From positions 19,434,783-19,498,782 of the forward strand of contig OZ020250.1 of assembly GCA_963971285.1 (NCBI GenBank): a DNA stretch of 64,000 nt, written 5' to 3'. This stretch comes from Astropecten irregularis (Eukaryota; Echinodermata; Asteroidea; Paxillosida; Astropectinidae). Below the pieces are notes generated by a model, which saw only the letters and a program-made list of their open reading frames with translations, searched no databases and was not told the DNA's origin. Shown here one piece after another: positions 2-57,011 of the stretch. How positions within the stretch are numbered: position 1 is the stretch's first letter; every line of letters begins with the position of its first letter. A program made the translations under genes and the position numbers.

Positions 2-997
2 GTCACATGTAGACGCTTGTATTCTAAGCCTTGCACGCAGTTCATGGCAGACCTACCGAAAGAGCGTGTTGAACCTAACAAGCCCCCTTTCTCCCACGTA
101 GGTATTGATGTTTTCGGGCCATTCCATGTTAAATATGGCCGGTCTGAAATTAAGCGCTATGGTTGTATGTTCACGTGCTTGGGCCTGCGAGCTGTTCACA
201 TCGAGAAACTTGATTCTTTGGACACTGATTCCTTTTTGAATGGCTTTAGGCGCTTTGTAGCACGCCGAGGCCACCCTGAAGTTGTGTTTTCAGATAATGG
301 CACCAATCTTGTTGCTGGTGAGTCAGAGTTAAGGAGCAATTTGAAGGGTCTCTCTCTTAAACTCATAGATGCCTACGCAGTAAAACAGGACATAGTCTGG
401 CGGTTTAACCCCCCGACTGCATCACATATGGGTGGAGTCTGGGAACGGATGATAGGGGTAACCAAGAGGGTAATGACAGCTCTGCTCCCTAGATCCGTTA
501 GGCTCACTGATGATATACTAGGGACTCTCTTTTGTGAAGTAGAATGCATCATCAATGGGCGCCCACTCACCAAAATCAGTGATGACCCCAGAGACCCCAC
601 ACCAATAACACCTAATCATTTGTTACTCCTCAGACAAGGCAGTTGCTTACCACCAGGTAAATTTGACCGCGTTGATGCTCTCCGAAGGCGCTGGAAACAT
701 GTTCAACATCTCGCCGATCAATTTTGGCGCAAATGGCTAAAACTGTACCTGCCTGAACTACAGAAGCGTTCAAAGTGGCTGAAAGTAACAAATAATTTGG
801 CAATTGGTGACCTCGTCCTACTCCAGGACGAGACTACCCCTAGGAATCTTTGGCCATTAGCTATAGTCATTGGTGTTACTAAAGGCAGAGACGGACTAGT
901 TAGATCGGTGAAGGTCAAAACCAAAACGACCGAACTTGTTCGACCTATCAGTAAGATTGTTCTGCTCGAATGCGCTTGCGCACCAATCAACAAGTAA
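2..997 (+). mobile_element. BEL/Pao retrotransposon pol: integrase and C-terminal domain (fragment)
   Basis: The frame is open from base 2, so this is the 3' part of a longer pol gene cut by the window edge. It opens with the end of a zinc-binding segment (C-R-R-x5-C just before MADLP). The DDE integrase core follows, with the first Asp in GIDVFGPF, the second in SDNGTN and the Glu in GGVWERM. The last 90 or so residues (WLKLYLPELQKR ... LVLLQDE ... RPISKIVLL) match the DUF5641-type tail typical of BEL/Pao integrases. The stop codon is TAA at 995-997 and this part has no internal stop, so the copy may be fairly young. It sits in an upstream intron of COPZ, in the same orientation. The enzyme would insert the element's cDNA into the chromosome. 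Confidence 0.9.
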
Positions 998-19764: not shown

Positions 19765-20138
19765 TTAAAGGTAGTATCATACTACTTTGGTTTTTATCAA
19801 AGAAATACAGATTCATGGGCAAAAATATCAAGACAGATACAGTAACAGTCATCTGTGAAAATTTCAGTCACATACGGTGCCCACTTTTTGAGAAAACAGT
19901 GAAAAACAGCCACAGTTTTTCTTAAGTCTTTTCTCTTTTATTTTTGATCTTTAAAAGATCAAAAAGATTTTCGGTATTTGTTTTTACCAATTTCTGGATA
20001 CATGTAAATAGACCATTTCAGGCAGAAAAATTGTAACGGTATGTTTCTACCACCACCATCTTCATACCCTGTAAGTTATAGGTGAATCTGTGAACATTTC
20101 TGTTTTGGTTTCTTACCAAAGTATGATACAACCTTTAC
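19765..20138 (+). repeat. MITE family B copy 3
   Basis: TTAAAGGTAGTATCATACTA at the left, CCAAAGTATGATACAACCTT at the right. The central block GATCTTTAAAAGATC is a self-complementary core conserved in the family. Confidence 0.88.
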
Positions 20139-24639: not shown

Positions 24640-25490
24640 GGTCTCATAAAACTTGGATAGACTGGCTTTTGCCCTGCGGTTCACAGGGTCAATACAGGTC
24701 TTGTCTGTGGCCCTTGTTGTATTGTCAGCTTCGGCAAGGGCTTCGACTTTGGCTTAGGCTTTACCTTCACCCAGGATATTCTTTTCAAAGTGTGTCAGAA
24801 TTAAAGGTATTGTGATATCATTTGCTTTGTGAATACGAAAATGTGAGCCTCAGCTTCAAGACAAAGCCACAGTCTGTACCTTCAGCTTATGGATGACAGA
24901 GCAGAAGCCACAGCCTAAGCCAGAGTCGAAGTCAGAGCCAAAGTTGGAGCTGAAGCCATAGCCAAAGCCATACTTGAAGCCATAGCCAAAGTCTTAGCCG
25001 AAGCCCTAGCCGAAGCCCTAGCCATAGCCATAGCCGAAGCCATAGCCATAGCCATAGCCGAAGCCCTAGCCAAAGCCATACTTGAAGCCATAGCCAAAGT
25101 CTTAGCCGAAGCCCTAGCCGAAGCCCTAGCCATAGCCATAGCCGAAGCCATAGCCATAGCCATAGCCGAAGCCCTAGCCATAGCCATAGCCATAGCCCTA
25201 GCCATAGCCGAAGCCATAGCCCTAGCCGAAGCCCTAGCCGAAGCCCTAGCCATAGCCCTAGCCGAAGCCATAGCCGAAGCCATAGCCATAGCCCTAGCCC
25301 TAGCCGAAGCCCTAGCCATAGCCGAAGCCATAGCCCTAGCCAAAGCCGAAGCCATAGCTGAAGCCATAGCCGAAGCCCTAGCCATAGCCCTAGCAAAAGC
25401 CCCTAGTAGACAGAGCAGAAGCCAGAGTCACAGCTTGAGCTGAAGCCAGAGCCAAAGCTGAAGCCTAGGTTTTGAAAAGACCCTGTGTAT
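24640..25490. repeat. MITE family F copy with expanded hexamer arm
   Basis: The left end GGTCTCATAAAACTTGG and right end GGTTTTGAAAAGACC are roughly inverted. The inner block CTTCAGCTTATGGATGACAG before the array matches CTTCAGCATGGATTACAGAG of the family F copy at 34252. So this is the same kind of element, with its right arm enlarged by the minisatellite at 24904-25400. Confidence 0.55.
24904..25400. repeat. GCCNNN hexamer minisatellite, about 0.5 kb
   Basis: About 80 tandem hexamers, mostly GCCATA, GCCGAA and GCCCTA, fading into variants at both ends. A higher-order unit of 108 bases is duplicated: the marker TACTTGAAGCCATAGCCAAA appears at 24971 and again at 25079, followed by the same hexamer order. 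Because the unit is 6 bases long, two minus-strand frames of about 155 codons stay open: (Ala-Met/Arg/Leu/Ser)n and (Leu-Gly/Trp/Arg)n. These are a by-product of the repeat and are not genes. Confidence 0.9.
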
Positions 25491-31370: not shown

Positions 31371-31461
31371 ATGGTACATCTTCATCGCGAAACAGTCACT
31401 TCCAGAAGAACTCTCGTCATTCTGATTTTTCTCTTGAGGATGTTTTCCCAAATTGTACAAG
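31371..31461 (+). CDS. Receptor exon 1: start codon and signal peptide
   Basis: ATG at 31371 (GCGGAATGG, purine at -3) opens MVHLHRETVTSRRTLVILIF, then LLRMFSQIVQ: a basic n-region, a hydrophobic core LVILIFLL and a polar end. The exon closes with one base (G) at the strong donor CAAG/GTAAGA. Phase 1 matches exon 2. Confidence 0.8.
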
Positions 31462-34400
31462 GTAAGAAAATACCCAGTCCTCTTGGCTCGAGGCTTGAGG
31501 CTTGAGAGATTGATTTTGCTACCACCATTTTGTGTTCTGAGTGAAATAAAGGGCACGGAGATACATGTCGAAGCTGGAGCCTTTCTTCGGCTTCGTCACG
31601 TGGCCCAATCGCTTCGTTTCATTTTCTCCTTTAAATGGCGGTAGCGAATCAAGTCCCAAGCCTAGCCTCAAGCCTCGGCCGGTTTCGTAAAGGCTCTAAG
31701 ACTAGAGGGAATTGTATGATGTCCGAGGTTTATCAGTGTAGTAGTCTGAGGTTTGAAGCTATAGGCCTACTGACACCGGTGTTTTGGGATCGGTGTCGGG
31801 ATTCGGATCTAGATCCAATCTAGTTTTCACTTACACCAGAAAAGTAGGCTGCTTAGTGGCGGTTGCCATCAGCTGCCGTCGTAGTCCAGTGGTGAGGGAG
31901 GGGACGAGGGTACATAAAGGGTGACGTGTTTTTATGCTGTTTGTTTAGGCCCCTTATCCACCTCTAAACAGTTAATTTGTGGATTATTTTAGGATGGAAA
32001 CTTGGCGTGAAGGATCAGGACAAAACCTGCTACCTCTACACTCACGAGACCAAAACCTGCTTCATCGAGTCCCACGTGTACGGCCGAGTCGTCCTGCCGC
32101 TGCTTCTAACTCCCACCACGCCCACCGAGTCGGCCACACCTCCCGATATCAGCTGGTTCCGACGGGTGAAGCTCCGCAACGGCCACACCCTCGCCGTCTC
32201 CGATCTCCTCGACAGAGGGCGCCCTCCTGTCGACATGGACCTGTCGGAGGACCGGAGCGAGCTGACGATTAAGATCTTGTCCGAGCATGACATGAGCAGA
32301 AACAGCTTCAAGGCCCGCGTTGGAGCTGGAGACGGGCAAGGGGGAGCTGGAGGGGACTTTCAAAATTTCGTCATTGAATCAGCACCGGTTGGTGAGTGCG
32401 TGCAAAATGGACATTGAAAACACAAAATGACAGACCCTTGAAACTCTAGTAACTAGATCATTTTGCTTTAATACTGAGTGAAAGACAATATAGACGAATT
32501 GACAATTAACGGGGGCAGATAATATACACAAGCACATGCAAGCAGATAAGGCAAAGATTTAAAGCTGACCCCAGTTAAAGGGCGTGTTCAACGTTGATAA
32601 AGGTCACAGAACAACACTCACACTTTGTCTAATCCAGCATGTACATGAAATAATTAGCCTGTGAATATTTGAGCTCAATCGGACATCTGAGTCACGAGAA
32701 AATAGCCAAAAACCGACTCAATTTTTCTAAGAAAACATGAACATTTTGATCTCGCCAAGATAAAAATGTTTTGGGTGTTTGGTTTTCTTCTTTCTAGATA
32801 AATACACCATTACAGGCAGAAATATTTTAACGATATGTTTCTACCACCGCCATCTTCATACCCTGAAAGTTTGTTACTAATGTTGTACAATCATGCTCTT
32901 TAACCTGAACAAAACACCCTTTACATGCAATGTAAAAACCGTGCTTCGTTATTGCAGTCAATATGTTGGGCCAGAGATTTTGTTCACCATGCAGTCGGCC
33001 ATCCATGATCATGCAAGCCATTTCCATTGACGATCAAACCTTGAAATGTCACTCAAAGACGAATTCTCTGGACCCAAAGTTTAGGCCTACCTCCTAAAGC
33101 GATCCCAATCAATTTCAGGGGATCGTTGTTAAAATCATCCCGTCTTTATACCTTATGTTAGTCCTCTTTGCCTTCCCTTCCATCTCGAATCTAGATATCG
33201 AGGAGCCGAAGCCGGGAACCTTCGTCGCCATCAACACGATGGACTTTTTCACGGTGCCCGGACGGACGGCCCACTTTGAATGGTCAAAAGAGGGCGCCCT
33301 CCACCTTCCTCGCAACGTCGACATCAGCCACGACGGCAAGCGGCTGTTGATTCGACACTTTCTGCCGGCGGAGGACTCTGGCGTGTACGTGTGCGAGGTG
33401 TACAACCAGGCGGACTACTTTATTGCGGGCAGGAGATTTATACTTGGAAGCGGTAAATAGCCCACTAAATGTGAACCGCAATAGACTTTTCTTTTGTTTA
33501 CAAACATTGACTGGTGGTTGGCAATACTTGGTATGGGCGGCCAAATGTTGCAAATCATTTCGTCTCCTTGACAAACGGCGTGATCAAATTCATCATTTTA
33601 TTTTTTACAAACTTTCCATAGCTGTACAAAATACATACCAGCATTGCTTGTGTTGTTTCCATTTCATTCAGCAATATCTTTCAATGTCTATGAAACGTTG
33701 GGTACAAATTGGGTACAAATTGCGGTTATTTTTTTATGCCTGGCTTTGACGGCTCGCCATAGTTTCCGCCATCTTGGTTGGCAAAAAAACCCAAGAGTTT
33801 GCAACACGTTGGCCAATGACAATGCGCGGAATTTTCAACCCAATGCGCATCTGGAAAGGGTCGACAAATTCTGCGCATTGTGATTATGAAATCTCGTTGA
33901 AAGACACAGACAGAACTTGACAGGTTTAACACTTCAATTGATCATGTTTTTGCAAGACCATCTATTCGAAAAATTTCCTAACAAGTTTATAATAAACTTG
34001 GTTCTTCAAAAGAAATAAGCCTATCGTTTAATCATAAGGTAGGCCTATTCAGGACATAATTTTCCCATGTATATGTTCTTTTTTTTTCAGCCGGGAGTGC
34101 ACACTCCGAATGGAGTCCAAGTGCACCCACGGATGATCTGCACTACGATGAACAATATGGTATTTTCCCAATAACATGAGAATTACATGACTAAAACGTT
34201 ATTAGGCAAAAATGCAAAGTCCAAAGCCACACAACAGTTGCATCTAGTTCAGGGGCCTTTCTCAAAGCAGGGCTCCGGCTAAGGCTCCGGCTTCGGCTCC
34301 ATTTAGTGAATCCATTTTAAAATAATTATGGGTATCAAAATATAGACATTTGGCTGCGGTTAGGAAGTAGATTCTCTGGTTTGAAAAAGAAAACAGAGCT

Positions 34401-36348
34401 TCTATTTCAATGAAAAACCACAACCTATATTCTTCAGCATGGATTACAGAGACGAAGCCGGAGCCTGAGCCGGAGCCGAGCTTTGAGAAAGGCCCTAGAC
34501 TTGACCCAAGTCGGACTTTCGTGCTTGTTAGCCGTATGGCGCCCTCACTTGCCAACGCGCCAATCAACTCTGGGAATTTTGCGATCCAACAAAAAAATAA
34601 TTAACGCCGAGCAGTTACGGACAACAGAGGGCGTACACAAGCAGCTTGCTGACGAAACCCACTTGAGTTCAAGTCTAAAAGATTTCATTATGTGGGGAAT
34701 AATATTGTTATTACATCAGTCAAGTTCAAAGCGGCGTTATGATTTCCATCGGCAGGTAAAAGCGCCCTCTATGAGCTGGAATCCCCGGATGTTGAAGGGC
34801 AGCAGCTGCCGTGGACTGACGATGAAGCCCCGCCTGATGATATGGACGAAGCCCCGCTCCATATTGCTGAAATGGTGCACACCTTCAAAAACAATGGAGG
34901 TTTGTCCAGATCCCAGGCAATTATCCTCTGTCTCAACGAGAAAACAGACATCAAAGTTATTTTGGGGAGATTTGAAGTGTCTAATGCCAGTGTCATATGG
35001 GCAAATGTTTACAGGCAACTTAGAGGCAACTGCCTTCGCTAGCACTAAAGAAATGTTTTCTGGTAGTGTCTTACTTTCGATAAGGAAATTATGTGAACAT
35101 TGAAAAGATAAATTTTATTCCTTCCTGAATATTGCCGGGAACTGATTGTTTGTAAATTGCTGGCAGTGGTGCAATATGGGCCTAATTTAGCCAGGTGTCC
35201 GTGGCTTTTAAACATGGATTTTGGCACGGTGAATTCTCCACACCCATTTTCACAAGATTGATCATAGACTTGTGACACGCAAGTAAACAGGATGATAGCC
35301 AATGCTTCATTCAAGCACATGGAATCTAGAAAATGAATGGGCGTGGTACTCCCGCCCTTTCGCGCCCCACCAATAACTTGGCCACCATTTTAATAAGTCT
35401 TGACTCTCCATGTATACATGTACATTGCACGATTATTACCGGGAATGGGTTATTAGGGAGACTTTCTCATTGGGTCGTGCACAAACTTTACTTACCTATT
35501 TCTAAACATCCTCCAAACCAATGAACTTGAAATTGACATATAATCATATTGAGCACATTCTCTGTCTTCTATTAAAATATGGACATTAAAAGTATGTCTT
35601 TAAAAGGTAGCTGGTATAATAGGGAGACACCGAAAAGTCTCCCTATTTTTAAATGTCTTCCAAATGTTCACTTTTAGACGCTAAAGTGTCTCCCTAATAT
35701 AATAATTTAAATAAATTGGCCAAATTATATTGGCGGTCCATGTTTTCATGATACAAATGCCGACACGTGTTCTTTAAGTTCAAGGGACGCTAGCTCAGGT
35801 TTTTAATTTTCAACTAATGGGAGTTGAATAATGTTTTGTCTAGAGTATTGAATTTGGATTTAGAGACGAAATCTGAAATTCTTTGGTTTAAATTTACCCT
35901 ATACAGATACCGATTACGTGCTGAACGGAAGGACCGTGTACCTGTCCTGCTTGCCCAGCAACATGGCGCCGGTTGACGCCAAGATGATCATGGGTCTGAC
36001 TTTCGCCTGGGCCAGGCCGAGCCGCCGAGGCGGTGCCGTCACGGCGACCTTTGATCCGGCGAGGTATCTGACCATGGACGGTGGCGTCCTGTCCGTGTTC
36101 GGTGTCGGGCCGAATGACTCCGGGATGTTAGAATGTAAAGTGAGGTACCACGACGGCTTGGGCAGGAGGCGAGAAAAGATTTACGCTTACGGTATTGAAG
36201 GTACGATGGTTTAAAGAAAGTAAGCACATAATAATATTATGTATTCCTTTGAATGTGCAATTTGTTTTACTCAGTTACTTTGTTGAGGTTGAAGGTCGTA
36301 GGTTGGAATCCCACTCCAGGCAATGGGCCTTAACGAATCGAAACGGAC

Positions 36349-36381
<33 letters not shown>

Positions 36382-39300
36382 AAGGCTCAGGCTCAGGCAC
36401 AGGCTCAGGCACAGGCTCCAGCTTTGTCATCCAAATGCTGAAAATGATAGGTTGTGTTTTTTTCATTGAAGCTGAAGCTCTGTTTTCCTTTTCAAACCAG
36501 AGAATCTACTACCAAACCGCAGCCAAAAGCCTCTTAATTGATTCCTGTTATTTTAGAATGGATTCAGGAATTGGAGCTGCAGCCTGAAACAGAGCCTAAG
36601 CCTCCGTTTCGTAAACGCTCTACGTTCTTTGTACACCTTTCAATGGCTTAAAATGAATCCTTTCAATGGCTTAACATTAATCCAGTTAGTGTCCCTTTTG
36701 GTTGGTTCGATGTGTTCAGTTGTTTTAGTCTTTAATTTCCAACTATAATAATGCGTAAGGCCATACAGTGGCCTACACATAAAAACGCCAATAGAAGACA
36801 GTGAAGGTCATCGTTAGGTTTGTTGGGTGCAATGCAGAATATGTGTGGAATCGCATATTGTTTTAGAGCAGGGAAACAAAGGGTGGCGTGCCGGTGGCAG
36901 GATTGGAACCGTCGCTTGTGGAGATGATAGCCCTGGTGGTCCTCAGTTCTCCTCGGTCGGTCTCACACCATGTACCAAGCTCGCTGAATTGAAGCGAGTC
37001 ATCGGGTTGCTGTGCTCCTTGCATCAAGCCGCAGTCATCCCACAGCCTGCCTTATCTCGTACCATGCCTTAAGAATCTCCTAACATACGCCACATCCAAA
37101 CAAAAATACCGATACGGTTATAAAATTGTCAGATTCTATAATTATTTCAAAATGCTAAACATGTAAGGTTGTAAAAATGTCAAAAATCTGTGCGTTGACA
37201 AAACGTGCATGGGTTTAAATTACCGAGTTCTGCAGTATGATATGACGAATGTGACACATGCCAGGCTCTGGTCATATCGGGCGTCGTGATGGTGTCGGCC
37301 CCAAGTTGGACATCGGCGACAGTTTTACTGCGTTAATGACTCGGGGAATTAATTACAATGTAGGACCTTGGCTCCTTCGTAATTGCATGTTATACATTAC
37401 ACCTAGACGTAGTCTAGCCACTGGGCTAAACCTATGTCTGCTTAGCCTTGTATTGCGTCTTAGGCTCTGGCTTTGTCTTACTGACTTGTATCAGGTTTAT
37501 GATGTAGGCCTAAGTCAGATTTTTTTTCCTATTTCCCATTTTGATATCACTTTACGCGTCGCAATGGGCTATACGTATAATATCACTTTGGGTGTCGTCT
37601 TGCGGCTTCCATAGCTGTACGTAAAATTAATATTCCAATGAAAAATATTATCATCATCAATTCAAGTTGAATTTTTCTTGCCTGAATTTAAGCATCAACA
37701 ATGGACCCCAGGGGTCGATTTCACCAAACTCATTGTAACTTACTTATCAATCGTAGGACTCATGATGCATTGCAGCCCACGTAGAAGTCGTAGGATACGA
37801 TGGGTTATCCTTCATAACTCTGGTTACGATCGATCGTAGGGCTTTGTGAAATTGACCCCATCAGCACTATACATCTATGGCCCAATGTTGTCAAACCAAA
37901 TTTGGTATTGGTATATTCTTTGTCATTTTTTTTGGTCCTTTTTCTTTTTACCTTTTTCACATGCAGTCTTTTCTAACGAGATGATTTTGTTTGTTTGTTT
38001 GTTGGGGGTGTTTGTTTGTTTGTTTGCTGAATTGTTAATGATCAATCGCTCTTAGCGCTGGAAATCAAATCATTTGATTGTCCTCGCAAGTTCTTTGAGT
38101 TACTTATCGTAACAATTCTGAGTCCCAAAAATGTTGTTTTGTTCCTGGTTCTGCCTCGGGCCTCCCCGTGGATGACGTATCGTTCTCGGGATGATGAAGT
38201 TTCAGTTTTCGGTTGTGTTTCTGCTGTTGTTGTAGCCCGTTGAGATCAGAAAATCAGCCATGCAAAACCTAATTATATAGGATGGGGGGAAGATTTACGT
38301 CCCATGTCGGATTCGAGTCCCGGTTCTTTTGGTTTAACAGCCAAACTGAAGTCGCTTTCACAGTCATAGAAATCAAAGAATAAATTTGATCTCAAAAAGT
38401 TGGCAGAATTTTGTCTGTGACTTTCATTTGAATATTATTCATCCCTTGACATGGAAGCAGATGACTTTGTAGATCTTGGCGTTTTTTGGAACAATGTTCG
38501 TCATTCGTTTTATTTGGTTCCTTGTTCGTTTTTAGTGTACACTCTCCCCGATGCTGTCTACTCGATATCGGTGGACTATACCGTGAGCTCTTGCAGGTAT
38601 GCCCGGTCCATCTTCGCCCAGCGACTGGGAGAGCACCTCAATTCGTTCGTCGTTTCGAGCGACGACGATGCAATATCCTCCTCCTCCTTCTACGAGATCA
38701 GTAACTTCACCGCCGCCTGCAACGACAGCAGCCCGGCGAGCGCTAGCCGCGGCGGCAAGACCAGGGCGGTGCGGCGTCCGGGCAGAGACCGGGACGCCAC
38801 GGGTGATGTGCCCGTGGGTCGTGGTGGTGGCCGGCGCGTCGCCGTGACGCGGGTGGGCATGGACGTGGTGGTGCGACACGGTGCGATGTCGGAGTGTAGT
38901 ATGGAGTGTATGACGGGCCAGATGGACGTAAAAGCTAGCATGGTGAGTACAGGAGAAAAACAAACAAACAAACACCCCAACAAAAAACAAACAAAGTACA
39001 AAACAATAACAACAACAACACCAACACCAAAACTGAAACCAAAGGCAATGCATTGCCAAAACTCAAAACTGAACACAAACGACAACCACAAGAAAACGAA
39101 ACAGATTTAAAAATCGAAAAAAGAAGGATTCTTTGACATGACTTCCCTTGTGCCAACAACTCGCTCTCGGCCATTAAATATTTGTTCGTGGGGAATAAAT
39201 TGATTAATAATTATGTTTCCAAACAAAGGAGGTATATTTCTGGAATTGTGTTTCCACAATTTGTGACGAAAATGTAACAATTCCATGAACATAACCGAAA

Positions 39301-42300
39301 ATAGGGAGTCATGAAAACGTTTCAATAATTCAATAATTCAATAATTGTGCCAAAAAGACAAACTTAGGCCTTTTTTGTTTTTCCAAGAGTAAATAACTTC
39401 TTAAATTTTCTGAAAATGTAAGTTGCAGAAAGGAATTCCACCACATATCAAGTTGAACCAAACGAGGCCATACGTTACATCTTCATTCCTGAAGATGTTC
39501 TGAATAAAGAACGAAATATAGAATCCAAAAATGGCTTCCCTGAGTCTTTTTGGAGTTTGTATAATATTAATTATTGAGGCCATACTTGCTTAGCTTTTTT
39601 AGGAATCGAAGTAAACTCAATTCCTCCTTATACATTGTTTTCCGCCTTGATAGTTAGTCGAGGCAGGATGTAGAATTCTCTTTTTCATTCCTTTTTCGTT
39701 ATTTTCAGATCGGCACGAAGTTGGCTACGTTCTTCCATCTGGAGTTTGAGAAGGGGCAATACTCCAATGATCCGTACCGACTGATTCCCAGCTCCCTACG
39801 CATCGCACTGAGCTACCGCTGCGATGAGGGATACGGGCTGCACGGCTCGATTTGCGGTACGTTGTCGGTCCAATGTCACCATTTCAAGTTGGTGTTTTTC
39901 AAACGCAAACGAACAGAAATCACTTAAATGTTCCTTCAATACGAGGGCAAAACTAGCTTTCAGGAAACAGAGGTTTGAAAATCACGAAGTGTCATTTCGA
40001 TGAAATCAAGTCCTAAACTGAGTCGAAATCTTGAAGAAGGTGATGGGCATGGAAAAACCTACCAAAGGAATTGTAATGGCCAGTATGAATATGGACACGG
40101 CCTCCAAATCATCGTTTGCAAAATTCAGAAGACTTTCGAGATTTTCGAGATTTTCTCAAATTATAAGGCATAAAATATGGTAAAAAAAAAAAAATCAAAT
40201 TACAGGTGTGAAAAATGGTTTGAAAATTGCACCGGAATTAACGATTTGGTTAAAGGGTGTCAATTTTTTTCTCCATAAAACCCCGGCTAAACGGGGGTTT
40301 GCAAACCTCAAAACCTCCCTCTAGATTCGCCGTTGCAATCACACATTTGGGCGGTGTAGTAGTTTTTCGTGAAAACGGCAACCGAAAAGTAATTGTCCTG
40401 CAAGATTTATCAGAAAGAATTATGTCCAAGTAAAAGTTCGATCTATTAAAAAGGAAAAACAAAACACAGGTGGTTAAACTGCCTATGAGCCGGAATTTTG
40501 TAGAGAGCGGAATTTAGTTAAAGAATACAAGAATATCAGAAGAAAATAGGTACAATCAAATGAAACAAACAAAACATTTTGAACTCAAACACAGACTATT
40601 TAAATTATGAATTTGTGATTGTAATAAGTTGGCAAGACTAGAAGCCGTTAGCTAACTTCGCGATGAACAACCAAGGGTCAATTTCATAGAATATTTTGCT
40701 TAAGCATGAAAAGTCTTCCATGATCAAACGGGATTACCAAACGAATTTTCATGTGATGTTAATACTGCATGTGACTTGTATTCGGACATTGTTTGCTGCA
40801 TGTTCATAACATTCACATGGAGTTTTGGCTGGCATACTGATTTTATCTACCAAGGTTTTTGGTGCTTAAGCAACTTCTGGTGCTTAAGCAGCTCTATGAA
40901 ATTGGCCCCTGAATATCAAAGCTTAGCCACACATCGGGAAAGGAAAAATTTGGTTTTTTTAACAGAAGTTTTGAAACGGTCACAGGCTTTCTCCGAAGAC
41001 CGTGTTTAACTGACTAAAACCATTGAAATGATGTGTGCTTAATGTACAGAAGTTTTGAATCCAAATCGGAAAAAAACAGAGAGAGAAACATTGATTTCGT
41101 GCAACAGTTTGATTTTCAACACGCATGGGGTCCGAACCTATTCAGATTAAGTGTCCAAAACTTTGAGTTTGGTGATGGGAGTGCTCTCGGTGTGAAAGCA
41201 CCCAGAATCGTAGCTGTAAAATATGCCCTATGATGGTAAAAAAATATCGAACGATGGTTTAATTTTGAGGCCATATAGGCGCCGCCTGCAGTCGAAGTAC
41301 TACGGGCGGCTGCAGGTTGGGATATAGCCTTTGATAAATGAGAAATGTTTTACGCGACCTGTGTAAGAACTCCGCATGCGAAAACAATGAAGTAAACTTT
41401 TTCTTTCTTGCAAAATGGTCAACGCTCATTCGGACTAAAATCAGCTTTACAAATCCTCAAAATTAAATCGATTTCAGACATCACAATGATCTGTACAGAT
41501 AAACATAGCTTATCAGAATCCTTGTTATTATGTTATAGTGGCCTGCAAACCCGGATCCTACAGCGAGCTCGGTAGTACGGAGTGCCGTCAGTGCTCCGTC
41601 GGTACCTACCAGGCAGCGGCCGGTGCCGTGGGCTGTACGGATTGCCCGACCCAAGAGTCCACGTTCTGGTCCGGTGCAGTCTCCGCGGAGCAATGCCAAG
41701 GTATATACGCTCAGAATATCCGGTCTTTTTTTGTCCTCATCTGTTTTGTGCTTATTCTTCATGATTTCGACGGATTTTTCTTTGCATTAAATAACTGATA
41801 TTGGTAGCTATCGATGTATAGGCCTTACGGGTTATTTTCAATTTTCGTCTACAACGAAGCTGAATTTTTCAGGGGGAAAATATTGATGTTGTCTCGGTTG
41901 AATTTTAACGGGCGTGCTTCACTTTAAAAGGAGAAAACTCACGGTCGTATTATTTTTAGGAACGCCCGAACGTTTACGCGATGTAACGAAAAATGAATAT
42001 TTAATCTCCGTTACAACTTTGACCTTTAATTATTAATAAACCCTATATAGCTGTACTATTCATAGGTTCAGAATGGTAATAACCTTAATTGGTTGTCGGT
42101 CAGAAATGGCACTGAGATCAATAAGGCCAAAAAAAAAAATTGTGTTGCCCTCAGCGACCGACCGTAAAATGCCAAAACTTTGGGTCGGGATTTTTTTTTC
42201 TTTTTCCTCCGAGTCCTTAAGTATAAAAACTCACAATTTTTGACAGAAAATGTAAGATCTAGCAATAAAAAAGCGTGTCTCATCAAAACGATCCAAGATC

Positions 42301-45300
42301 GTTGATTTATAAGCCCTGGTGACCATTCATCCTGTATTTATTCTTAAATGTTTGAAAGTCGGCCCCCTAAAAAAAAATACAAAAAAAAATCAACCGACCG
42401 ACCCAAAATTTAAATTTTTCCACTTGAGGGCAACACAACAATTTTTTTGTTTTTCGGCCTAATTATGAAACTGGTAAAGAGAGGTACAATGTCACTCGGT
42501 ATTCAACGTGGGCAGGGCATGTCAGTTCAGTTCAGTTCAGTTCATTTTATTTCCACTCATGCAAGTCAAATCAGTGCATAAAATAACAGTATTTTTACAC
42601 ACAAAAATAACTCCAAATTCTTCAAACTTTCGCAAGATGGTTATTATTGGCTTTTATTTTATTTATTCATTATTATTGTTTTTAAGAGAGAAACACATTT
42701 TACTTTTTACTTTTCGAAGGAGAACTTTTTTTTCGAAATTCGAAATGACAAAATTAGAAACAAATATATGTGTGTAGGCCCCTAAATAAAAGAATTGTGT
42801 GATCACAAAAAGAGCAAACAATTCAGTATCTATCATAATAAGTAGAGGGTATGTAAGGTTACGGAGATGAAGATTATAAGCAACGGTGAGGAGGTGTGGG
42901 ACGTGGGGCACATTTTAATCGACACCGTCTTGGAAAAAAAAATGTATAGTCATACCATCAAAGTTCAATGGCACATCATGCATGTGCTTTCCTTAACCAG
43001 TCAATATTGTTGCCCACTCAACGCTGTTGCTTGGACCGAGAACTAGAAATGACCAAACATGCAATGAACAGTCCATTTGTTGACTAATAACAACGATAAA
43101 GATCCTCCTGATAAAGGTCTCCTGATGAGGACTATAGAGCAGGCTAGTCAAAACGTTGAGACCTTACGAGAAGTGCGAACGGAACAGAAGTGCGAAAGTA
43201 CGAACGATTCTTACATGGTGTTTCCGCAAACCGATCCACGTACCAATTGTCACCATGCAAAGCCTCAAATCTTTCTTGATAAAGATCGTGCTAGGATCGA
43301 AACGCGTCAGGCCCTGCTAAACCCTAGTATAAAATGATATAAAATCAAAATGGCTGATTGTCTGCATGTTTTTTTTTTTTTTTTTTTATCAGTGAAGACA
43401 GTCATCATGGCGACTATGCTGGGTGCCTTTGGTCTGATGGTAGTCCTCGGGCTCCTGGTGTCCTGCATACTCTACAGGTAGGGCCTTACATGCTCTATGA
43501 AGAACAAAAGGAAACATAGTTATTACTGTTGATAAGAATTGCGTCTTTAATCTCAACAAAGCTGTTTTTAAGTTTTAACCGCCGCCATACAATCATAATA
43601 TTAGCCAACCAACCAAATAATTAACATAAATAATTACATATACATGTAACATAATAAATAAGTTACATCACAGAAATGTCAATTAAAGAGCGTTTATTTG
43701 TTTTCTAAACAGAATTGAAAAGCATCGTCGTCGGAAGTCTGTGCGATTGGTAAAAGCCGATGCTGACATTGTAGTGACAGCGGACGGTGCAGCTGGTCCG
43801 GATTCCGGTCAGGAGGCTGGCCAGCAGACGAGTAAGCAGCGCCTGTACCTGTCAGCGTCGGATGTGGCTAGTGCCGCCGACGAGAGCGAGTTACAGGGGC
43901 TGCTCAGCCGAGACGACGGCGATGACGACGGCACGGAGTCACGGCAGCACCCACCGGCAGTCGCCCTGGATAGAGCCGGTTACTTACCGGTACGAGAAGA
44001 GGTGCTTGTTCATTACGGCAACCTGGAGCCTGACCAGGTGCTCTACGATCACCATACACAGCGTGGATTTGCTGAAAGCCCCTATTCGGTGCATCAGGAT
44101 CCTACAGGCGCATCAAGTGATAAAATGTATCGAGACGAAATGGTCAGCTCATATCAACCTCACTATCATGATCAGTATCATTATCTCAATGAGGACAGGA
44201 GGCAAGAAGAAGACCCATTCGAGACACTTGCTCATACACGTAGTTCTAAACAGTTGGTTTCCTCTGAAGAACGGTATGGTAGGCCTGGTTCCCTCATTGA
44301 GCAACCCGTTGTTGAGACTATGCTGGACCAGACATACCCTCCTTCTCAGACGACCCTCACTCCCAAGTACTTGTCTCGGGATGCCAGCGTATCTCGAGGA
44401 TCTGTGCTCCAGTCCCATGTTGATTTACCATCCCACCGGATGCCCAGTTCACATTCTCAAGAGGTCAGGATAATGTCTGAACATTCGTCCCGATTTGGCA
44501 CTCCCTCCCAAGAATCTTTCATGGAGATATCTCGACCGACTGCATTTTCAACCCACCGAACGCTTTCATCTCAGGAAGGCCGCCACCTGTCTGGCAGGTA
44601 CTCATCGCCGCTGCTTGATGACACTCCTATGTATCAACTGCCCCCGTCATCAGGTAGGCCAACAACAACCTCCCAAGCAAGTATCACTAGGAAGAGTAGC
44701 ACGCAGCCACCAGCAAAGGAGCTACCGTCCTTCAGCTCGTCTAGTCCCAGTAGCCCTCGGAGTCTTCGGTCAAGCACGTCTAGCCGTTCTGTCTCGCCCG
44801 TCCTGCCTCTTGACTTTTCTGATTCCGATTCAGAGACTGAAATTAGGGACGTCTCAATGGAGGGGAACCGTGAAGTACCGAGAGACGTGGAGAGTATCCA
44901 ATCGTCGCTGGCTCACAGACCGGAGCCACCACCTGGAAGAGGTTCCATCGCCGCTCTGATAGAATCCTACCAATCCTTAACCCAGTATGTTTCAAGACCT
45001 CAGCTCCCATTATCCACCCATGAATTGTCAGATCAGATTAGCCTTGACGTCGGTAGTGCGTTAAAGACCCCTCCACGCTCTTCGAGTACACCTCGGAAGG
45101 ACTTGTCAAGAACGTCGACTTCAAAAAGCCCTGGAGCAGCGTCGAGCATGCACGCGTTCAGCCCTCCTCCGATTTCTACCGTTGAATCCGGAGAATTGCC
45201 TGTTCCTAGCAGAGAAGCACTAGAGACTATAGAGAAGCCTGTCCTCGATGAGCGAATCAGTGATGCTTCATTGGCATCCCCTCAAAGAACACCACAGAAG

Positions 45301-46926
45301 TATCCATCTAAACCCTCAGCTCCTGTCAGTTCTAAAGAATTCATCTCTGTTGAACCCACCTCTGTTGAAGATGAATCGTCGGCTCAGAGTGCCTCATCCC
45401 TGCAAGCCACTCCATCGATTCAGCAGCCTTCAAGGGAGTCACTCATGGCCAGGAGGTCCTCTCTCATGACAAGTGCTTCAGGGAGACCGATTAATCCATT
45501 CAAGCTGCAACGTCTCAGACGACTATCTCTTGTAGACCAGGAATCCTCGCATTCAGTGGCAATGCTGTCGTCAACCTCTATTGCACAGGCTTCAATTGTG
45601 AACATTTCTCAAACAGCACCACCACCGCCTCCTCCTCCTACTGCCGTAGAGACCTCTTCCACTACGGTTGCCTTGGCCACTCATCCTCCTGCCAGCACCG
45701 CCCATTCCCCTGCAAGTGCGCCACCTTCAACATCTGCACCTCCTCCGGCCGTGGTGCATTCCAATGTTGCCCTCCCTCCAAGTGCGACTCCTACTGCTGT
45801 ATCACATCCTGCGCCTCCCATTGCTTCTACCCCTCCCTCAGTGACTCATGTCGTAACCTCTCCACCTGTTGGCGTTTCTGCCAGTGTAATGCCTCCCCCA
45901 CCCGCTCCTCCTCCACCTCCCCCTCCTCCAGCCCTGTCTGCAGGGGAGGCAATTACTCCGGCAGGCGCACCTCCGTCGGTAGCATCCCCACCATCTCGTG
46001 CCCCTAACACCAAAACACCAACTCCAGCTCCTTCTGCGGGCCAATCAACTGCGCCTCCTCACCCAGTGGCCGCTCTCATAAACTCTGCGTCCACCAGAAC
46101 AAAGGGACCAAAGTTCCTCGAGTCTGAAACCGTCACGGCAGGACCTACAGCAAAGGCACCAGATCTGAGAGGCCCGTCTGCCGGAGAGGCCGGTAAACCA
46201 GGACTGCCCGGTGGTACTTCTGGTGAATCTGCAGGAGTCGCGCCGCCTCCACCACCACCTCCTCCTCCTCCTCCCCCGGCTCTGTCGGACGCAGGGGCAG
46301 CTACCCCGGCAGGTGCACCTCCTTCGGCAGCTTCCCCACCATCCCATGCCCCTTCAGCCAGAGCAACACCTCCAGCACCTTCTGCAGGCCAGTCAACTGC
46401 GGCTCCTCACCCAGTAGCTGCTCTCATCAACTCTGCGTCCACCGGTAAAAAGGGTCCTAAGTTTCTAGTGTCTGAAACCGCTTCTTCAACATCACCGACA
46501 GCCGCTAAGCCAGGACCACCCAGTGGTACTTATGGCCAAAATGCCGGCGGTATGCCGCCTCCAGCACCTCCTCCTCCCCCACCGGCCCCATCTGACGCAG
46601 GTGCAATCACTCCGGCTGGCACACCTCCTTCGGCAGCTTCCCCACCATCTCGTGCCCCTGTGGCTAAACCATCAACCCCAGCACCTGCTGCGGGCCAGTC
46701 AACTGCGGCTCCTCACCCAGTGGCTGCTCTCATCAACTCTGCGTCCACCCGTAAAAAGGGCCCAAAGTTCCTCGCGTCTGAAACCGTGTCGGCAGCACCT
46801 ACCGTAGAAGCACCAAGTTCGAGAGGGCCACCCCCACCGGCCGGTGCTTCCGGAGGGCCCGGTGGTTCTGCCAATGCCGTGCCTGCTCCCCCACCACCAC
46901 CCCCTCTCCCCCCAAATGTTAACTGA
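31371..46926 (+). CDS. Ig/GCC2-GCC3 single-pass receptor with poly-proline cytoplasmic tail (11 exons)
   Basis: Joining 31371-31461, 31993-32391, 33195-33452, 34091-34159, 34756-34899, 35907-36200, 38536-38942, 39709-39856, 41539-41700, 43393-43477 and 43713-46926 gives 5,271 bases: 1,756 codons plus stop. Every junction is GT/AG and in phase. Predicted order: signal peptide (1-30), Ig-like 1 (about 40-155), Ig-like 2 (about 165-245), acidic linker (250-320), Ig-like 3 (321-418), a Cys-containing module (419-603), GCC2/GCC3 repeat (604-657), membrane helix (about 661-685), basic stop-transfer IEKHRRRKS and a tail to residue 1756. It is a type I surface protein, probably in adhesion or signalling linked to the actin cortex; that role is inference. 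The ligand is unknown. I recognise no named orthologue. Missed small exons cannot be excluded. Confidence 0.8.
31993..32391 (+). CDS. Receptor exon 2: Ig-like domain 1 (non-canonical cysteines)
   Basis: Acceptor ATTTTAG/GA, donor GTTG/GTGAGT, phase 1 to 1. Ig-like features are the core Trp in ISWFRR (W85), a charged CDR-like loop and LTIKILSEHD. The last part has SFKARV where YxCxV is expected, so the F-strand Cys is absent. Two cysteines lie close together at C43 and C53 (TCYLYTHETKTC). The Gly/Ala run GAGDGQGGAGG precedes the end. The fold assignment rests on pattern only. Confidence 0.8.
33195..33452 (+). CDS. Receptor exon 3: Ig-like domain 2
   Basis: Acceptor CGAATCTAG/AT, donor AGCG/GTAAAT, phase 1 to 1. 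It contains HFEWSKEG (W193), LLIRHF and the strong Ig signature EDSGVYVCEV (C230). The partner B-strand Cys is missing; the site reads RTAHFEW. The domain is encoded by a single exon with symmetric phases, as is usual for Ig domains. Confidence 0.88.
34091..34159 (+). CDS. Receptor exon 4: linker
   Basis: The acceptor TTTTTTTTTTCAG/CC is excellent. 69 bases encode AGSAHSEWSPSAPTDDLHYDEQY, an acidic Ser/Pro linker. Donor TATG/GTATTT, phase 1 to 1. Confidence 0.75.
34252..34495. repeat. MITE family F copy (hexamer-built ends) in receptor intron 4
   Basis: 244 bases with inverted ends GGGGCCTTTCTCAAAGC and GCTTTGAGAAAGGCCCT. The sub-terminal arms are imperfect hexamer runs: GGCTCCGGCTAAGGCTCCGG at the left, GAAGCCGGAGCCTGAGCCGG at the right. 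The inner block CTTCAGCATGGATTACAGAG is shared with the element at 24640. Confidence 0.8.
34756..34899 (+). CDS. Receptor exon 5: acidic linker
   Basis: Acceptor CATCGGCAG/GT. The product includes ALYELESPDVEGQQLPWTDD, then EAPPDDMDEAPLHIAEMVHT: acidic, Pro-rich and without Cys. I chose the donor GGAG/GTTTGT because it restores phase 1 for exon 6; GTGCAC at 34875 would not. The frame stays open 47 codons past this weak donor to a TAG at 35040-35042, which allows a truncated soluble form. Confidence 0.65.
35451..35700. repeat. MITE family G (TATTAGGGAGAC ends) in receptor intron 5
   Basis: Outer ends TATTAGGGAGACTTTC and CTAAAGTGTCTCCCTAATAT are inverted. Inside, AATAGGGAGAC and GTCTCCCTATT (35618-35647) form a perfect 11-bp hairpin with an 8-base loop, so the terminal motif occurs four times. 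Confidence 0.6.
35907..36200 (+). CDS. Receptor exon 6: Ig-like domain 3 (canonical)
   Basis: Acceptor CTATACAG/AT, donor GAAG/GTACGA, phase 1 to 1. It is the best Ig domain of the three: VYLSC (C335), FAWAR (W355) and LSVFGVGPNDSGMLECKV (C397) give the standard Cys-Trp-DxGxxxC spacing. One N-glycosylation sequon (NDS) sits in the EF turn. Confidence 0.92.
36325..36622. repeat. MITE family F copy with GGCTCA hexamer run
   Basis: About 12 GGCTCA-type hexamers at 36349-36420. The right arm is a decayed counterpart (GAGCTGCAGCCTGAAACAGA, GCCTAAGCCTCC). Ends are near AACGAATCGAAAC and GTTTCGTAAACGC. The interior TTTTCATTGAAGCTGAAGCT matches the family in inverted order. It lies in receptor intron 6. 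Confidence 0.65.
36617..36730 (+). repeat. SINE tail fragments
   Basis: TTTCAATGGCTTAAAATGAATCC is present twice in tandem, followed by CAGTTAGTGTCCCTTTTGGT. It corresponds to the tail of the SINE copy at 4190-4440; the tRNA part is absent. Confidence 0.5.
37711..37859. repeat. MITE family A copy 6
   Basis: Ends GGGGTCGATTTCACCAAACT and CTTTGTGAAATTGACCCC, in receptor intron 6. Confidence 0.88.
38536..38942 (+). CDS. Receptor exon 7: Cys-containing extracellular module
   Basis: Acceptor CGTTTTTAG/TG, donor AGCATG/GTGAGT, phase 1 to 0. It begins VYTLPDAVYSISVDYTVSSC, predicted mostly beta. A Ser/Asp-rich loop follows, with sequons NFT and NDS, then a long basic stretch (TRAVRRPGRDRD ... GGGRRVAVTRVG) and the cluster SECSMECMTG. 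No family was recognised; it directly precedes the GCC2/GCC3 region. The exon is GC-rich, so antisense frames stay open over it, but these are shadows. Confidence 0.8.
39709..39856 (+). CDS. Receptor exon 8: membrane-distal half of Cys-rich region
   Basis: Acceptor TTATTTTCAG/AT, donor TGCG/GTACGT, phase 0 to 1. It encodes IGTKLATFFHLEFEKGQYSN and ends SYRCDEGYGLHGSIC. The CxEGYxLxGSxC pattern is the typical lead-in to GCC2/GCC3 (ephrin-receptor-like) repeats. Confidence 0.85.
40675..40909. repeat. MITE family C copy in receptor intron 8
   Basis: Ends GGGTCAATTTCATAGAATAT and GCTCTATGAAATTGGCCC. The interior AAAGTCTTCCATGATCAAAC aligns with the copies at 6387 and 61877. Confidence 0.82.
41539..41700 (+). 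CDS. Receptor exon 9: GCC2/GCC3 (ephrin-receptor-like) Cys-rich repeat
   Basis: Acceptor ATGTTATAG/TG, donor CAAG/GTATAT, phase 1 to 1. ACKPGSYSELGSTECRQC and SVGTYQAAAGAVGCTDCP fit CxxGxY(x7)CxxCxxGTYQxxxGxxxCxxCP, with six cysteines (C606, C619, C622, C636, C639, C656). This small disulphide module is common in stalks of invertebrate surface proteins. It directly precedes the membrane helix. Confidence 0.9.
42121..42463. repeat. MITE family H (TTGTGTTGCCCTCA arms) in receptor intron 9
   Basis: Left arm AAGGCC, an A run, TTGTGTTGCCCTCA. Right arm TGAGGGCAACACAACAATTT, a T run, CGGCCT. A second inverted pair inside is ACTTTGGGTCGGG against CCGACCCAAAATTT. No frame of interest. Confidence 0.75.
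43114..43165 (+). ncRNA. Hammerhead ribozyme-like fold, probably inactivated
   Basis: Stem I is perfect: AAGGTCTC (43114-43121) pairs with GAGACCTT (43158-43165). The core CTGATGAG is at 43122-43129. Stem II is GACTA...TAGTC (43130-43149). The second core box reads AAAA instead of GAAA, so a catalytic G is lost. Then come C and GTT, the expected cleavage triplet. Stem III is only the ACGU palindrome, as in dimer-forming hammerheads of retroelements. The order is type I. Confidence 0.65.
43114..43285 (+). repeat. Family D repeat unit (hammerhead-bearing)
   Basis: Starts with the ribozyme-like fold and continues TTACGAGAAGTGCGAACGGA, then AAGTGCGAAAGTACGAACGA, CATGGTGTTTCCGCAAACCG and ACCAATTGTCACCATGCAAA. 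It is collinear with the right arm at 14162-14302 and with the minus strand of the 48564 copy. It lies in receptor intron 9, sense to the gene. Confidence 0.75.
43393..43477 (+). CDS. Receptor exon 10: transmembrane helix
   Basis: Acceptor after a long T run (TTTATCAG/TG), donor TACAG/GTAGGG, phase 1 to 2. It encodes VKTVIMATMLGAFGLMVVLG, then LLVSCILY. This is one hydrophobic helix of about 25 residues (661-685) with a GxxxxxxxG face. The next exon starts with the basic run RIEKHRRRKS, which fixes the orientation with the tail inside the cell. Confidence 0.88.
43713..46926 (+). CDS. Receptor exon 11: long cytoplasmic tail with poly-proline modules
   Basis: 3,214 bases, acceptor TTCTAAACAG/AA, stop TGA at 46924-46926. 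The juxtamembrane part is basic. Y787 lies in VHYGNL, which fits the ITIM pattern (V/I/L/S)xYxxL and also YxN. Y843 lies in YLNE, a Grb2-SH2-like YxN. The middle is Ser/Thr/Pro-rich, with SPRSLRSSTSSRSVSP and acidic DFSDSDSETE. From 45889 three tandem modules of 104-117 residues follow, each with a run of 6-12 prolines, the phrase HPVAALINSAST and a basic K-G-P-K-F-L box. A fourth proline run (PAPPPPPPLPP) ends the protein. It probably binds profilin, EVH1, SH3 or WW proteins; that is inference. The exon is GC-rich against its AT-rich flanks. Confidence 0.92.
45889..46878 (+). repeat. Three tandem coding modules in the receptor tail
   Basis: Modules at 45889-46239, 46240-46551 and 46552-46878. 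Shared order: poly-Pro, (A/I)TPAG(A/T)PPS, ASPPS, PAPxAGQST, HPVAALINSAST, KGPKFL, SET, then a Gly/Pro linker. They are similar at the DNA level as well, so the duplication is fairly recent or homogenised. Confidence 0.9.
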
Positions 46927-54654: not shown

Positions 54655-55242
54655 GCGGTACTGTGGTAGGCCCAGTAATTTCGCTGAATACGGATGTTCC
54701 ACAGGAAGTGTATAAGGGCCATCTATTGGTTGAATTTTGAAACTGCCAAATGCAGAATTCGTGCAGTGTTTGTTTCTTGTCCATTATTGAGCAATTTGAA
54801 TATTCAAATGAGCCGTGTTGCTTCCTGTAGTTCTCTGCCGTACCGTACGGTGAGCGTGATACAGTGTCGTCTGTACTTTTCGAGTGTCCCTCATGTTGCA
54901 AGACCATAAAAGTTGCGCCAAACGGCCACCGTTAACCACGGGACGACACCTTGACAAAAACAGACCCCGCCGCCAAAGCATACCTTCATACACCTTACGC
55001 CATTATGCACGGGAACACTGTAAGCTATAGCTACCTCCATCTGACCCAGCTCTCATCATAAAAAAAGAAGACTGGGATTTAAACTCGTACGAAGTATAAC
55101 GTCTATAGCTCAATCTTGACATTTTGATGCCGCGTTTTTATTTGCCGCGCCAAACTTTTTGAGAGAATTTGGGATTTTTTCATTGTCTTATTTCGTCGCG
55201 TCCGCTGATGTTTGACTAAACGAGGGTACCGTTTTCTTTCAG

Positions 55243-55941
55243 ACTGTTTTGCAAAAGGGGGTACAACACAACATCCCTGTGTTGAACTGCGTTTTCGTGA
55301 GTGGCTCTGTATGTGCCGTTATTCTTTCCACATGTTTTATGATCTATTTTGCAACTCTTCGTCGAGGACAACACCTTCGAGTGATATAGTCATGGACAGC
55401 GGCTCGCAGACGTTCGGTAGCGCCGGGAAGCCGTGTGCTTTGGCCACCCCTGGTGGTACGGGGAGTAGCTATCCAGCATCACGGGGTGCTTCGGGCGTTG
55501 GGAGCGGCTTCATGCAGGTACCGGCGCCGCCCATGGACCGCGGTCCGTCTACTTCGACTCCCCATCTCCCACATCACCCGACGGCACCGGGGCCTGGGGG
55601 CTACGCCTACGTAAACACCCGGGCCGACTGCCGGTTCGTGCAGCCGGGCTCAACCCCGGCAGCTGCTGCAGCCGCGGCGCCGTCCTCGTACGATGAACAG
55701 TATAAGAGCTACCGAGGCACAGCACCGGCGCTCTCCTTCAACAGCATGGAGCTCTCGACGGCCCACGAGGCCAGCCATCACCGGATGGACTTCGGGAACC
55801 CCATGCGGTATTCGGGCACCATGGGCGGTGCAACGGCTGCTGTGATGTACGGCAGCAACCATCAGGCTACTCAACAACATCTATCCTGCCTCAACTATCC
55901 AACGTGTGCTAATCCTACCGGCTATCCATTTGGTTTATCTG
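55243..55941 (+). CDS. 5' coding exon of a probable transcription factor (partial gene)
   Basis: The acceptor TTTTCTTTCAG/AC at 55242 and donor TCTG/GTAAGT at 55942 bound an open exon. I place the start at ATG 55392 (ATAGTCATGG, good context), giving 183 codons plus one base: MDSGSQTFGSAGKPC to YPFGLS. Earlier in-frame ATGs (55311, 55332) have poor context. Composition is Gly/Ser/Pro early, poly-Ala (PAAAAAAAPSSYDEQY), then Tyr/His/Met-rich with CLNYPTCANPTGYPFG before the splice site. Such low-complexity first exons, followed by a long intron, are typical of homeobox and other developmental regulators. No DNA-binding domain is in the exon, so the class is not known. It is GC-rich against its AT-rich flanks. 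Confidence 0.55.
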
Positions 55942-57011
55942 GTAAGTTCATTACTTGATCAAAAAAACAAGTCAAAATCCTTTCCCGCACTTCATAACTT
56001 TATAACATGCAAAGAAATGTTCCCCTCCCAACAAAATGTCCACCGTCCATCATGCCCATCATGAAGTCCTTACAATGCAACTTGCATTTAGCATTATTAA
56101 CAATTTGGGTTGTCTTTCGTTTCCACGATTTCGCTTAAAAGTGAAATGTAACTAATTATGTTTGTCAAACATTTCCCCTACTTTGAATGTTAAATGGCAC
56201 AAATCCATCACTCAACTAGAAAATCAATTTTTATCGCCGAATTGTTGAACAGTCTTCTTTAGGCCTACAGTAAAAGCTTAGATTTAAGATAATTTAAAAG
56301 TGAAAATACTTCTGAAGGAAACTTCTCCAAATTGTACTGTTTTCCTTAATAAATGAATGAAAATGAATTGTCAACCAGCGATTTATTGTTGGTTACAAAA
56401 AAGCCCACAAATTGTGGTCGCCCCGAGAAAGTGCCGAATATTCTGTGGGGGAAACGGGCGGCACGTGCCCCCTCCGAATGTCGCTCCCCCCTGGTACCCC
56501 CATCATTTGAAATCTCAATTTTGTTTAAAAGAATTGCAAACCTTACTGATGTTCCCTTCATTGTCTTCAGTGCCTCCTTGAAAACTTGGTGCACCCCATG
56601 TGCTCCTTCACAAATTTGACCCTAGTGACGCCATCGCTTGGAAACAACTAAAGAAATAGCAACATTAGGCCTATTTTCCATGATCATCTGAAGTTTGTAC
56701 AAAATAAGAATCTTTATAACACCCTTAAAAAGTTTGGCAAGCACGACTACCCCTCAACATATTAAATGACAATCCTACGGAGCTCTGCACAATTAATACG
56801 TATTTTATTATCAGAAATGAAAAAGCCTCAAGAAATTAATTCACTGAACTGTATAATTACAATAGGCTATTTTGTACGGGTATCGTGCGTCATACTGTTG
56901 TGTGTGATGTCAATCGCGACAAAAACTGTAAACCGTTCAAGTGGCAGTTAGGATTGCATAATTATGATAGAGCAGTTTAGGGATTCCTAAGGAGGGGTCA
57001 ACTTACAAGAC

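Follow-up and report, generated by a model that had tools for sequence, protein, structure and literature searches.

A sea star receptor gene with a probable distant ZPBP-like block in its ectodomain and a long proline-run tail

A gene of 11 exons on the + strand of the sea star Astropecten irregularis (positions 31371–46926 of the window, the 64,000-nt stretch of DNA analysed here) encodes, in a well-supported model, a protein that crosses the membrane once and has Ig sequence in its ectodomain and proline runs in its cytoplasmic tail. Within the ectodomain we report a likeness that is new: exons 6–9, comprising an Ig domain, an unnamed middle segment and a Cys-rich end, probably parallel the sperm proteins ZPBP1 and ZPBP2. 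The middle segment (exons 7–8) had not been singled out in an earlier note on this DNA. The reading that best explains the whole, which we hold tentatively, is a membrane protein with an ectodomain homologous to ZPBP1/ZPBP2 and a tail that would gather profilin–actin; it overlaps in part with the alternatives below, and the likelihoods attached to them all do not add up to one. The receptor is a testable candidate for linking cell-surface contact to actin growth.

The exon chain joins into 5,271 nt, giving 1,756 codons and a single terminal stop, with GT/AG borders at 10 of 10 introns and phases that are consistent across all exons, so that the 11-exon chain and 1,756-codon frame of the earlier note are borne out. 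Exon 1 (31371–31461, aa 1–30) supplies the start codon and a signal-peptide-like segment, and exons 4 (34091–34159, aa 250–272) and 5 (34756–34899, aa 273–320) are acidic linkers placed by splice sites and phase only. The whole protein has just two hydrophobic stretches, in windows starting at residues 13–16 and 656–672, in agreement with the signal-peptide-like start and single hydrophobic helix described before. The second is the transmembrane segment, recognized by hydropathy in exon 10 (43393–43477), with a peak KD19 of 2.57 at residues 666–684 (43416–43472). Exon 11 (43713–46926) then continues as one open frame through a basic stop-transfer run and a cytoplasmic tail some 1,070 residues long to the stop codon at 46924–46926.

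As a control on these frames, equal-length stretches were sampled from position 20000 onward, with the receptor exons left out. Long exons are seldom open by chance (56 of 15,844 sampled stretches at the length of exon 2, 46 of 15,615 for exon 7 and 0 of 10,807 for exon 11) and short exons frequently so (3,904 of 17,341 for exon 1 and 5,768 of 17,429 for exon 4); exons 1, 4, 5, 8 and 10 are placed mainly by splice sites, phase and content. The model could in principle fuse two genes wrongly, one contributing the ectodomain (exons 1–9) and the other the transmembrane segment and tail (exons 10 and 11), given that an intron of 1.7 kb precedes exon 10, a small exon with an ordinary open frame (4,599 of 17,353 sampled stretches). 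The phases match, however, and the signal-peptide-like start and the transmembrane segment complement each other, and we regard such a fusion as very improbable.

The receptor gene is apparently single-copy. In the 475.7-Mb assembly, with the best candidates scored, exons 2–5 and the first 635 tail residues each found their own locus only, as did exons 6–8 at E ≤ 0.1; at the same threshold and scope, a search with exons 6–9 reached nine other places, which have the Cys-rich repeat alone in common. The window also holds a retroelement piece at 2–994 (+), open at the window edge, with a DUF5641 match (2.6e-30) and a sub-threshold match to the integrase core rve (E 0.0054), as well as an array of a 12-base unit, AGCCGAAGCCAT, at 24900–25394 (41.2 copies); short runs that resemble this unit by eye occur in receptor introns near 34260 and 36350. 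Rfam gave no match on the window.

The ectodomain had been described as carrying three Ig-like domains. From the Cys pairs, the Pfam matches and an alignment to titin, we restate these as one with a canonical Cys pair, one probable and one possible. The canonical one is the third, in exon 6 (35907–36200, aa 321–418), which has both marks of the Ig superfamily that we looked for, a Cys pair (C335/C397) and a DSGxYxC-like motif (DSGMLEC); Pfam Ig_3 matches it at E 0.2 only. The probable one is the second, in exon 3 (33195–33452, aa 164–249), with the motif DSGVYVC, one Cys (C230) and a sub-threshold match to PF13927 (Ig_3; E 1.6e-5, 25.7 bits versus a cut-off of 30), the best Ig match of an ectodomain in which none exceeds a Pfam cut-off. 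Exon 2 (31993–32391, aa 31–163), the possible first domain, has neither the Cys pair nor a DSGxYxC-like motif and no Pfam match at E ≤ 10; its phmmer alignment to titin Ig reaches a whole-sequence E of 0.0013, with single stretches at 2.4 and 4.1. AlphaFold predictions of exon 2 alone (mean pLDDT 32) and exon 6 alone (39) were uninformative.

The six-Cys GCC2/GCC3 repeat of the earlier note is upheld by a match of exon 9 (41539–41700) to PF07699 (Ephrin_rec_like, formerly named GCC2/GCC3) over residues 609–656, at 42.3 bits (6.5e-11) versus a cut-off of 23.1 in a Pfam search of the first 1,321 residues. In the Pfam check that the earlier note had put forward, PF07699 passes its cut-off and every Ig match stays below. 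Kinase, EGF, CUB and sushi domains were looked for in the same 1,321 residues, and none was found over its Pfam cut-off.

A weak match to PF20626 (EGF_Sp38_C; E 0.11) prompted the comparison of exons 6–9 with ZPBP1 and ZPBP2, a lead that was spotted by inspection and tested afterwards. The sequences of human ZPBP1 and of ZPBP2 used here are approximate; that of ZPBP1 reaches 132.8 bits against PF07354 and 94.3 bits against PF20626, and can therefore be taken as near-correct. The ZPBP-like block would begin with the Ig-like domain of exon 6, continue through the first part of the middle segment in exon 7 (38536–38942, aa 419–554), pass in exon 8 (39709–39856, aa 555–603) from the end of the middle segment to the start of the Cys-rich end, and close with the repeat of exon 9.

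Three kinds of comparison point to this likeness. First, in pairwise alignments, BLASTP against the human ZPBP1 sequence gave E 1e-5 as a single comparison (33% over 51 residues, part of the support for exon 8), and Smith–Waterman scores of exons 6–9 were 80 against ZPBP1 (0 of 300 shuffles) and 94 versus 34.6 ± 4.8 against ZPBP2 (0 of 300 shuffles). Exons 7–8 compared with the middle of ZPBP2 scored 48 versus 28.7 ± 4.4 (1 of 300 shuffles), and with the middle of ZPBP1 they did no better than noise (62 of 300 shuffles). Second, hhalign aligned exons 6–8 with the ZPBP Ig and middle segment over 88 columns (E about 0.004, 0 of 30 shuffles) and the Cys-rich end over 51 columns (E 5e-6 to 1e-5, probability 82–86%); exons 7–8 alone versus the ZPBP middle gave 24 columns, E 0.02 and a probability of 2%.

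Third, a ZPBP1+2 profile scores the whole ectodomain at 21.5 bits, which for a search of 177,635 sequences means E 6.5e-4. The match consists of two stretches in colinear order, one of 9.0 and one of 10.1 bits, and taken singly they are not significant. The best of 177,635 distinct PDB sequences, the Ig part of DSCAM, reaches 16.2 bits with the same profile (E 0.026). Exons 6–9 alone score 24.3 bits, a value that drops to a mean of −0.8 bits when they are fully shuffled, and the exon-6 Ig alone scores −1.5 bits. Shuffling only the middle (aa 419–590) brings exons 6–9 down to a mean of 9.3 bits (maximum 15.1, 20 shuffles), and shuffling only the C-terminal part (aa 591–657) to a mean of 11.0 bits (maximum 11.3, 20 shuffles). 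When the C-terminal part was swapped for nine Cys-rich stretches of the genome, which also removes aa 591–603, the scores were 11.4–18.6 bits. The likeness to ZPBP stands or falls with the middle segment.

Against it stand both Sp38 Pfam models. PF07354 (Sp38 Ig) has no match in the first 1,321 residues at E ≤ 1 or in four pieces at E ≤ 10, and the PF20626 match, at 12.9 bits (10.7 bits in pieces), misses the cut-off of 24 bits. Genome-wide, PF20626 finds nothing over its cut-off and PF07354 only four weak places, none at the receptor gene and none over the cut-off; none of 14 control genomes gave a hit with either model. As a single-sequence phmmer query, exons 6–9 score 17.9 bits with ZPBP1 and 16.6 bits with ZPBP2, values that seven PDB sequences exceed (Mst1 at 27.3 bits, thyroglobulin at 25.6 bits and Eph receptors among them), in all of which the best stretch is the Cys-rich repeat; with the repeat removed, ZPBP2 scores 8.8 bits versus 14.5 bits for DSCAM. 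The other Cys-rich repeats of the genome, taken alone, score 1.0–12.1 bits with the ZPBP profile, one of the nine lying above the 8.2 bits of exon 9.

Exons 6–9 might on these grounds be an ordinary Ig plus GCC2/GCC3 array that resembles ZPBP by chance and shares no ancestry with it: the Sp38 models stay under cut-off, single-sequence searches place ZPBP behind PDB chains whose Cys-rich repeat or Ig is generic, and generic repeats score with the ZPBP profile too. Yet shuffling the middle alone costs about 15 bits of profile score, the receptor scores above every PDB sequence listed, and the gene is linked to Hox genes, as the human ZPBP genes are (see below). We consider chance likeness unlikely, although by no means negligible. 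Weighing the support from profile and shuffling against the counter-evidence of single-sequence searches and Pfam, we judge homology of exons 6–9 to ZPBP to be probable and not proven.

Because both Sp38 Pfam cut-offs are missed and a transmembrane helix is present, we call the receptor ZPBP-like and do not class it among the ZPBPs, although its way of working may still be theirs. The earlier note knew of no named family with this combination of parts, which holds for the whole architecture within the scope of our searches but gives way for exons 6–9, where ZPBP/Sp38 is a probable distant relative. Among the matches listed, the open-access literature yielded no record of such a protein, and the open-access ZPBP literature no title on an invertebrate ZPBP. 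A sequence search of the PDB found no ZPBP-like solved structure. A genome search with the approximate ZPBP2 sequence returned no candidates, even at the receptor gene, and is hence silent on absence.

The receptor gene ends about 8 kb upstream of, and on the same strand as, an open frame at 55209–55955 (+) that has no Pfam match and in which a posterior Hox gene probably has its first exon. A homeobox follows beyond the window end (C14:19502225-19502398, L024 3371–3670), and the two probably belong to one gene. Seven further Hox-type homeoboxes lie at 15.45–15.82 Mb of the same sequence, C14, all on the − strand, and from their motifs, judged by eye, we take them to be Hox1-, 3-, 4-, 5-, 7-, 8- and 9/10-like. 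Two more homeoboxes, both +, occur at 0.97–1.02 Mb of C20, perhaps as part of a ParaHox cluster; one is Xlox/Pdx-like, again by eye. The posterior-type homeoboxes of C14 number three, at 19.50 (+), 19.55 (−) and 19.60 Mb (+), the orientation pattern of Hox11/13a–c with 11/13b reversed that is described in PMC13228809. Echinoderm Hox clusters are reported as intact or otherwise rearranged (PMC6018497, PMC11310086, PMC13228809). That of A. irregularis looks split, with some 3.7 Mb between the seven homeoboxes and the three posterior ones, and a misassembly is possible.

In humans, each of the two ZPBP genes shares a chromosome arm with Hox genes: HOXB is at 17q21, ZPBP at 7p12 and HOXA at 7p15, and ZPBP has Ikaros as its neighbour. 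Human ZPBP2 is placed at 17q12–q21, adjoining Ikaros, in PMC5328393. As C14 makes up 22,992,106 of the 475,729,200 bases of the assembly (4.8%), linkage to Hox genes would arise by chance about one time in twenty, and we count it as modest support for the ZPBP reading. A corresponding linkage to Ikaros is unsupported: the best match is on C16, with none on C14 among the matches listed (best 150 of 1,126 candidates). The genome also contains a bindin gene (E 7e-31) on C19, the mark of an echinoderm, with its core exon at C19:2969360-2969560 (L019) and, upstream, a 357-residue open frame with many KGKK repeats.

The cytoplasmic tail spans residues 687–1756, and its last 436 residues are 27.8% Pro and 19.5% Ala. 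It contains five proline runs, of 7 (aa 1322–1328, 45619–45639), 8 (aa 1418–1425, 45907–45930), 12 (aa 1530–1541, 46243–46278), 6 (aa 1638–1643, 46567–46584) and 6 residues (aa 1745–1750, 46888–46905), after the last of which come LPPNVN and the stop codon. The earlier description of a tail of about 1,070 residues with proline runs of 6–12 is thus confirmed. Between the runs lies a repeat unit of 271 nt in three copies; identity to the first copy is 72% for the second and 80% for the third. All three share the module core HPVAALINSAST..KGPKFL.SET, whose 26 codons occupy 46060–46137, 46408–46485 and 46714–46791 (all +). Silent changes exceed replacement changes between the cores (5–9.5 versus 3–5.5, which are small numbers; dN/dS 0.13, 0.15 and 0.25), and the protein sequence of the module seems to have been kept between copies. 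With the best candidates scored, the genome holds the module in these three copies at the receptor gene only.

Profilin, EVH1, SH3 and WW domains had been named as possible partners of the proline runs. The tail has no EVH1 ligand motif (F/W/Y/L-P-x-phi-P) and no WW ligand motif (PPxY), which rules out an EVH1 or WW reading, and it has two SH3-type motifs. Neither part of the tail matches any Pfam family at E ≤ 1, a WH2 or other actin-binding domain included. The tail is Ser/Thr-rich, with one ITIM-like VHYGNL from aa 785 that may be a chance occurrence. The runs might serve as flexible spacers or SH3 ligands, leaving the work to the repeated HPVAALINSAST module with some partner, as the mainly silent differences between module copies, the two SH3-type motifs and the lack of a recognized domain would allow. 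An SH3 ligand, however, needs a shorter proline stretch than five runs of 6–12 prolines offer, and we think this account of the tail distinctly unlikely. Poly-proline binding is a general property of profilins, with testis profilin 4 as an exception, and profilin is the best-known partner of such runs (PMC2694148). Profilin binding by the tail, signalling through it and its link to actin are our inference.

Cell biologists have long asked how the membrane of echinoderm sperm sets off and directs the actin burst that builds the acrosomal process; a receptor with a proline-run tail would offer a gene with which to test this. The proposed mechanism takes the membrane-proximal ectodomain (exons 6–9) to be a distant homologue of the acrosomal ZPBP1/ZPBP2, extended at its N terminus by one or two further Ig-like domains and anchored by the transmembrane helix. 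The ectodomain would bind a ligand carried by a second cell or by matrix; if the gene is expressed in sperm, which is a guess from distant homology, this could be the egg coat or the acrosomal matrix. Clustering of receptors would pack the tails at the inner face of the membrane, where the proline runs may hold profilin–actin and feed it to filament ends, as for proposed membrane-clustered polymerases. In theory, membrane-clustered carriers of profilin–actin can outpace assembly from solution (PMC12621849). In echinoderm sperm this would most naturally take place at the tip membrane, where the actin acrosomal process grows out; in sea urchin and starfish sperm, egg jelly triggers exocytosis and rapid actin polymerization into that process (PMC7158055).

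A somatic adhesion receptor of the same anatomy is as likely as a sperm receptor. It would be an IgSF adhesion or guidance protein that acts in epithelium, nerve or coelomocytes through a tail linked to actin, and any likeness to ZPBP would reflect an old shared ectodomain and no role in sperm. Exons 2–6 each start and end in phase 1, as is typical of IgSF genes; the Ig parts weakly match titin, DSCAM and contactin; and the Ser/Thr-rich tail has its one ITIM-like motif. The middle segment fits this account less well, scoring with the ZPBP profile and matching no Pfam family at E ≤ 10. If the gene is somatic, the finding is far more ordinary, though still that of an IgSF receptor whose tail is unusual; if the ZPBP reading is true, ZPBP gains a possible invertebrate relative of different anatomy. 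The fullest form of the sperm reading, in which one membrane-anchored ZPBP-like receptor would join egg-coat recognition to profilin–actin feeding of the acrosomal process, with mammalian ZPBPs as what is left, in soluble and shortened form, of an ancient sperm receptor encoded by a Hox-linked gene in the deuterostome ancestor, is a bold conjecture to which we give little weight.

Finally, the receptor can be set beside three known systems. With ZPBP1/ZPBP2 (Sp38; PF07354 and PF20626) it probably has in common the order of Ig, middle segment and Cys-rich end, and it shares the Hox linkage. ZPBPs are soluble acrosomal proteins and are not known to have a transmembrane segment or a proline tail, whereas the receptor has extra Ig-like domains, a full PF07699 repeat, a transmembrane helix and its tail of about 1,070 residues. 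With the Ephrin_rec_like/GCC2-GCC3 proteins, which include SCUBE and SVEP1 besides Eph receptors, thyroglobulin and Mst1 (the best PDB matches of exons 6–9), it shares the six-Cys repeat of exon 9, of which it has one only. With WASP/WAVE and Ena/VASP-type polymerases it shares membrane-near proline runs as putative holders of profilin–actin (PMC12621849). It differs from these polymerases in a tail that has no Pfam domain such as WH2 and no EVH1 ligand motif, and in that the proline tail here belongs to the receptor itself.
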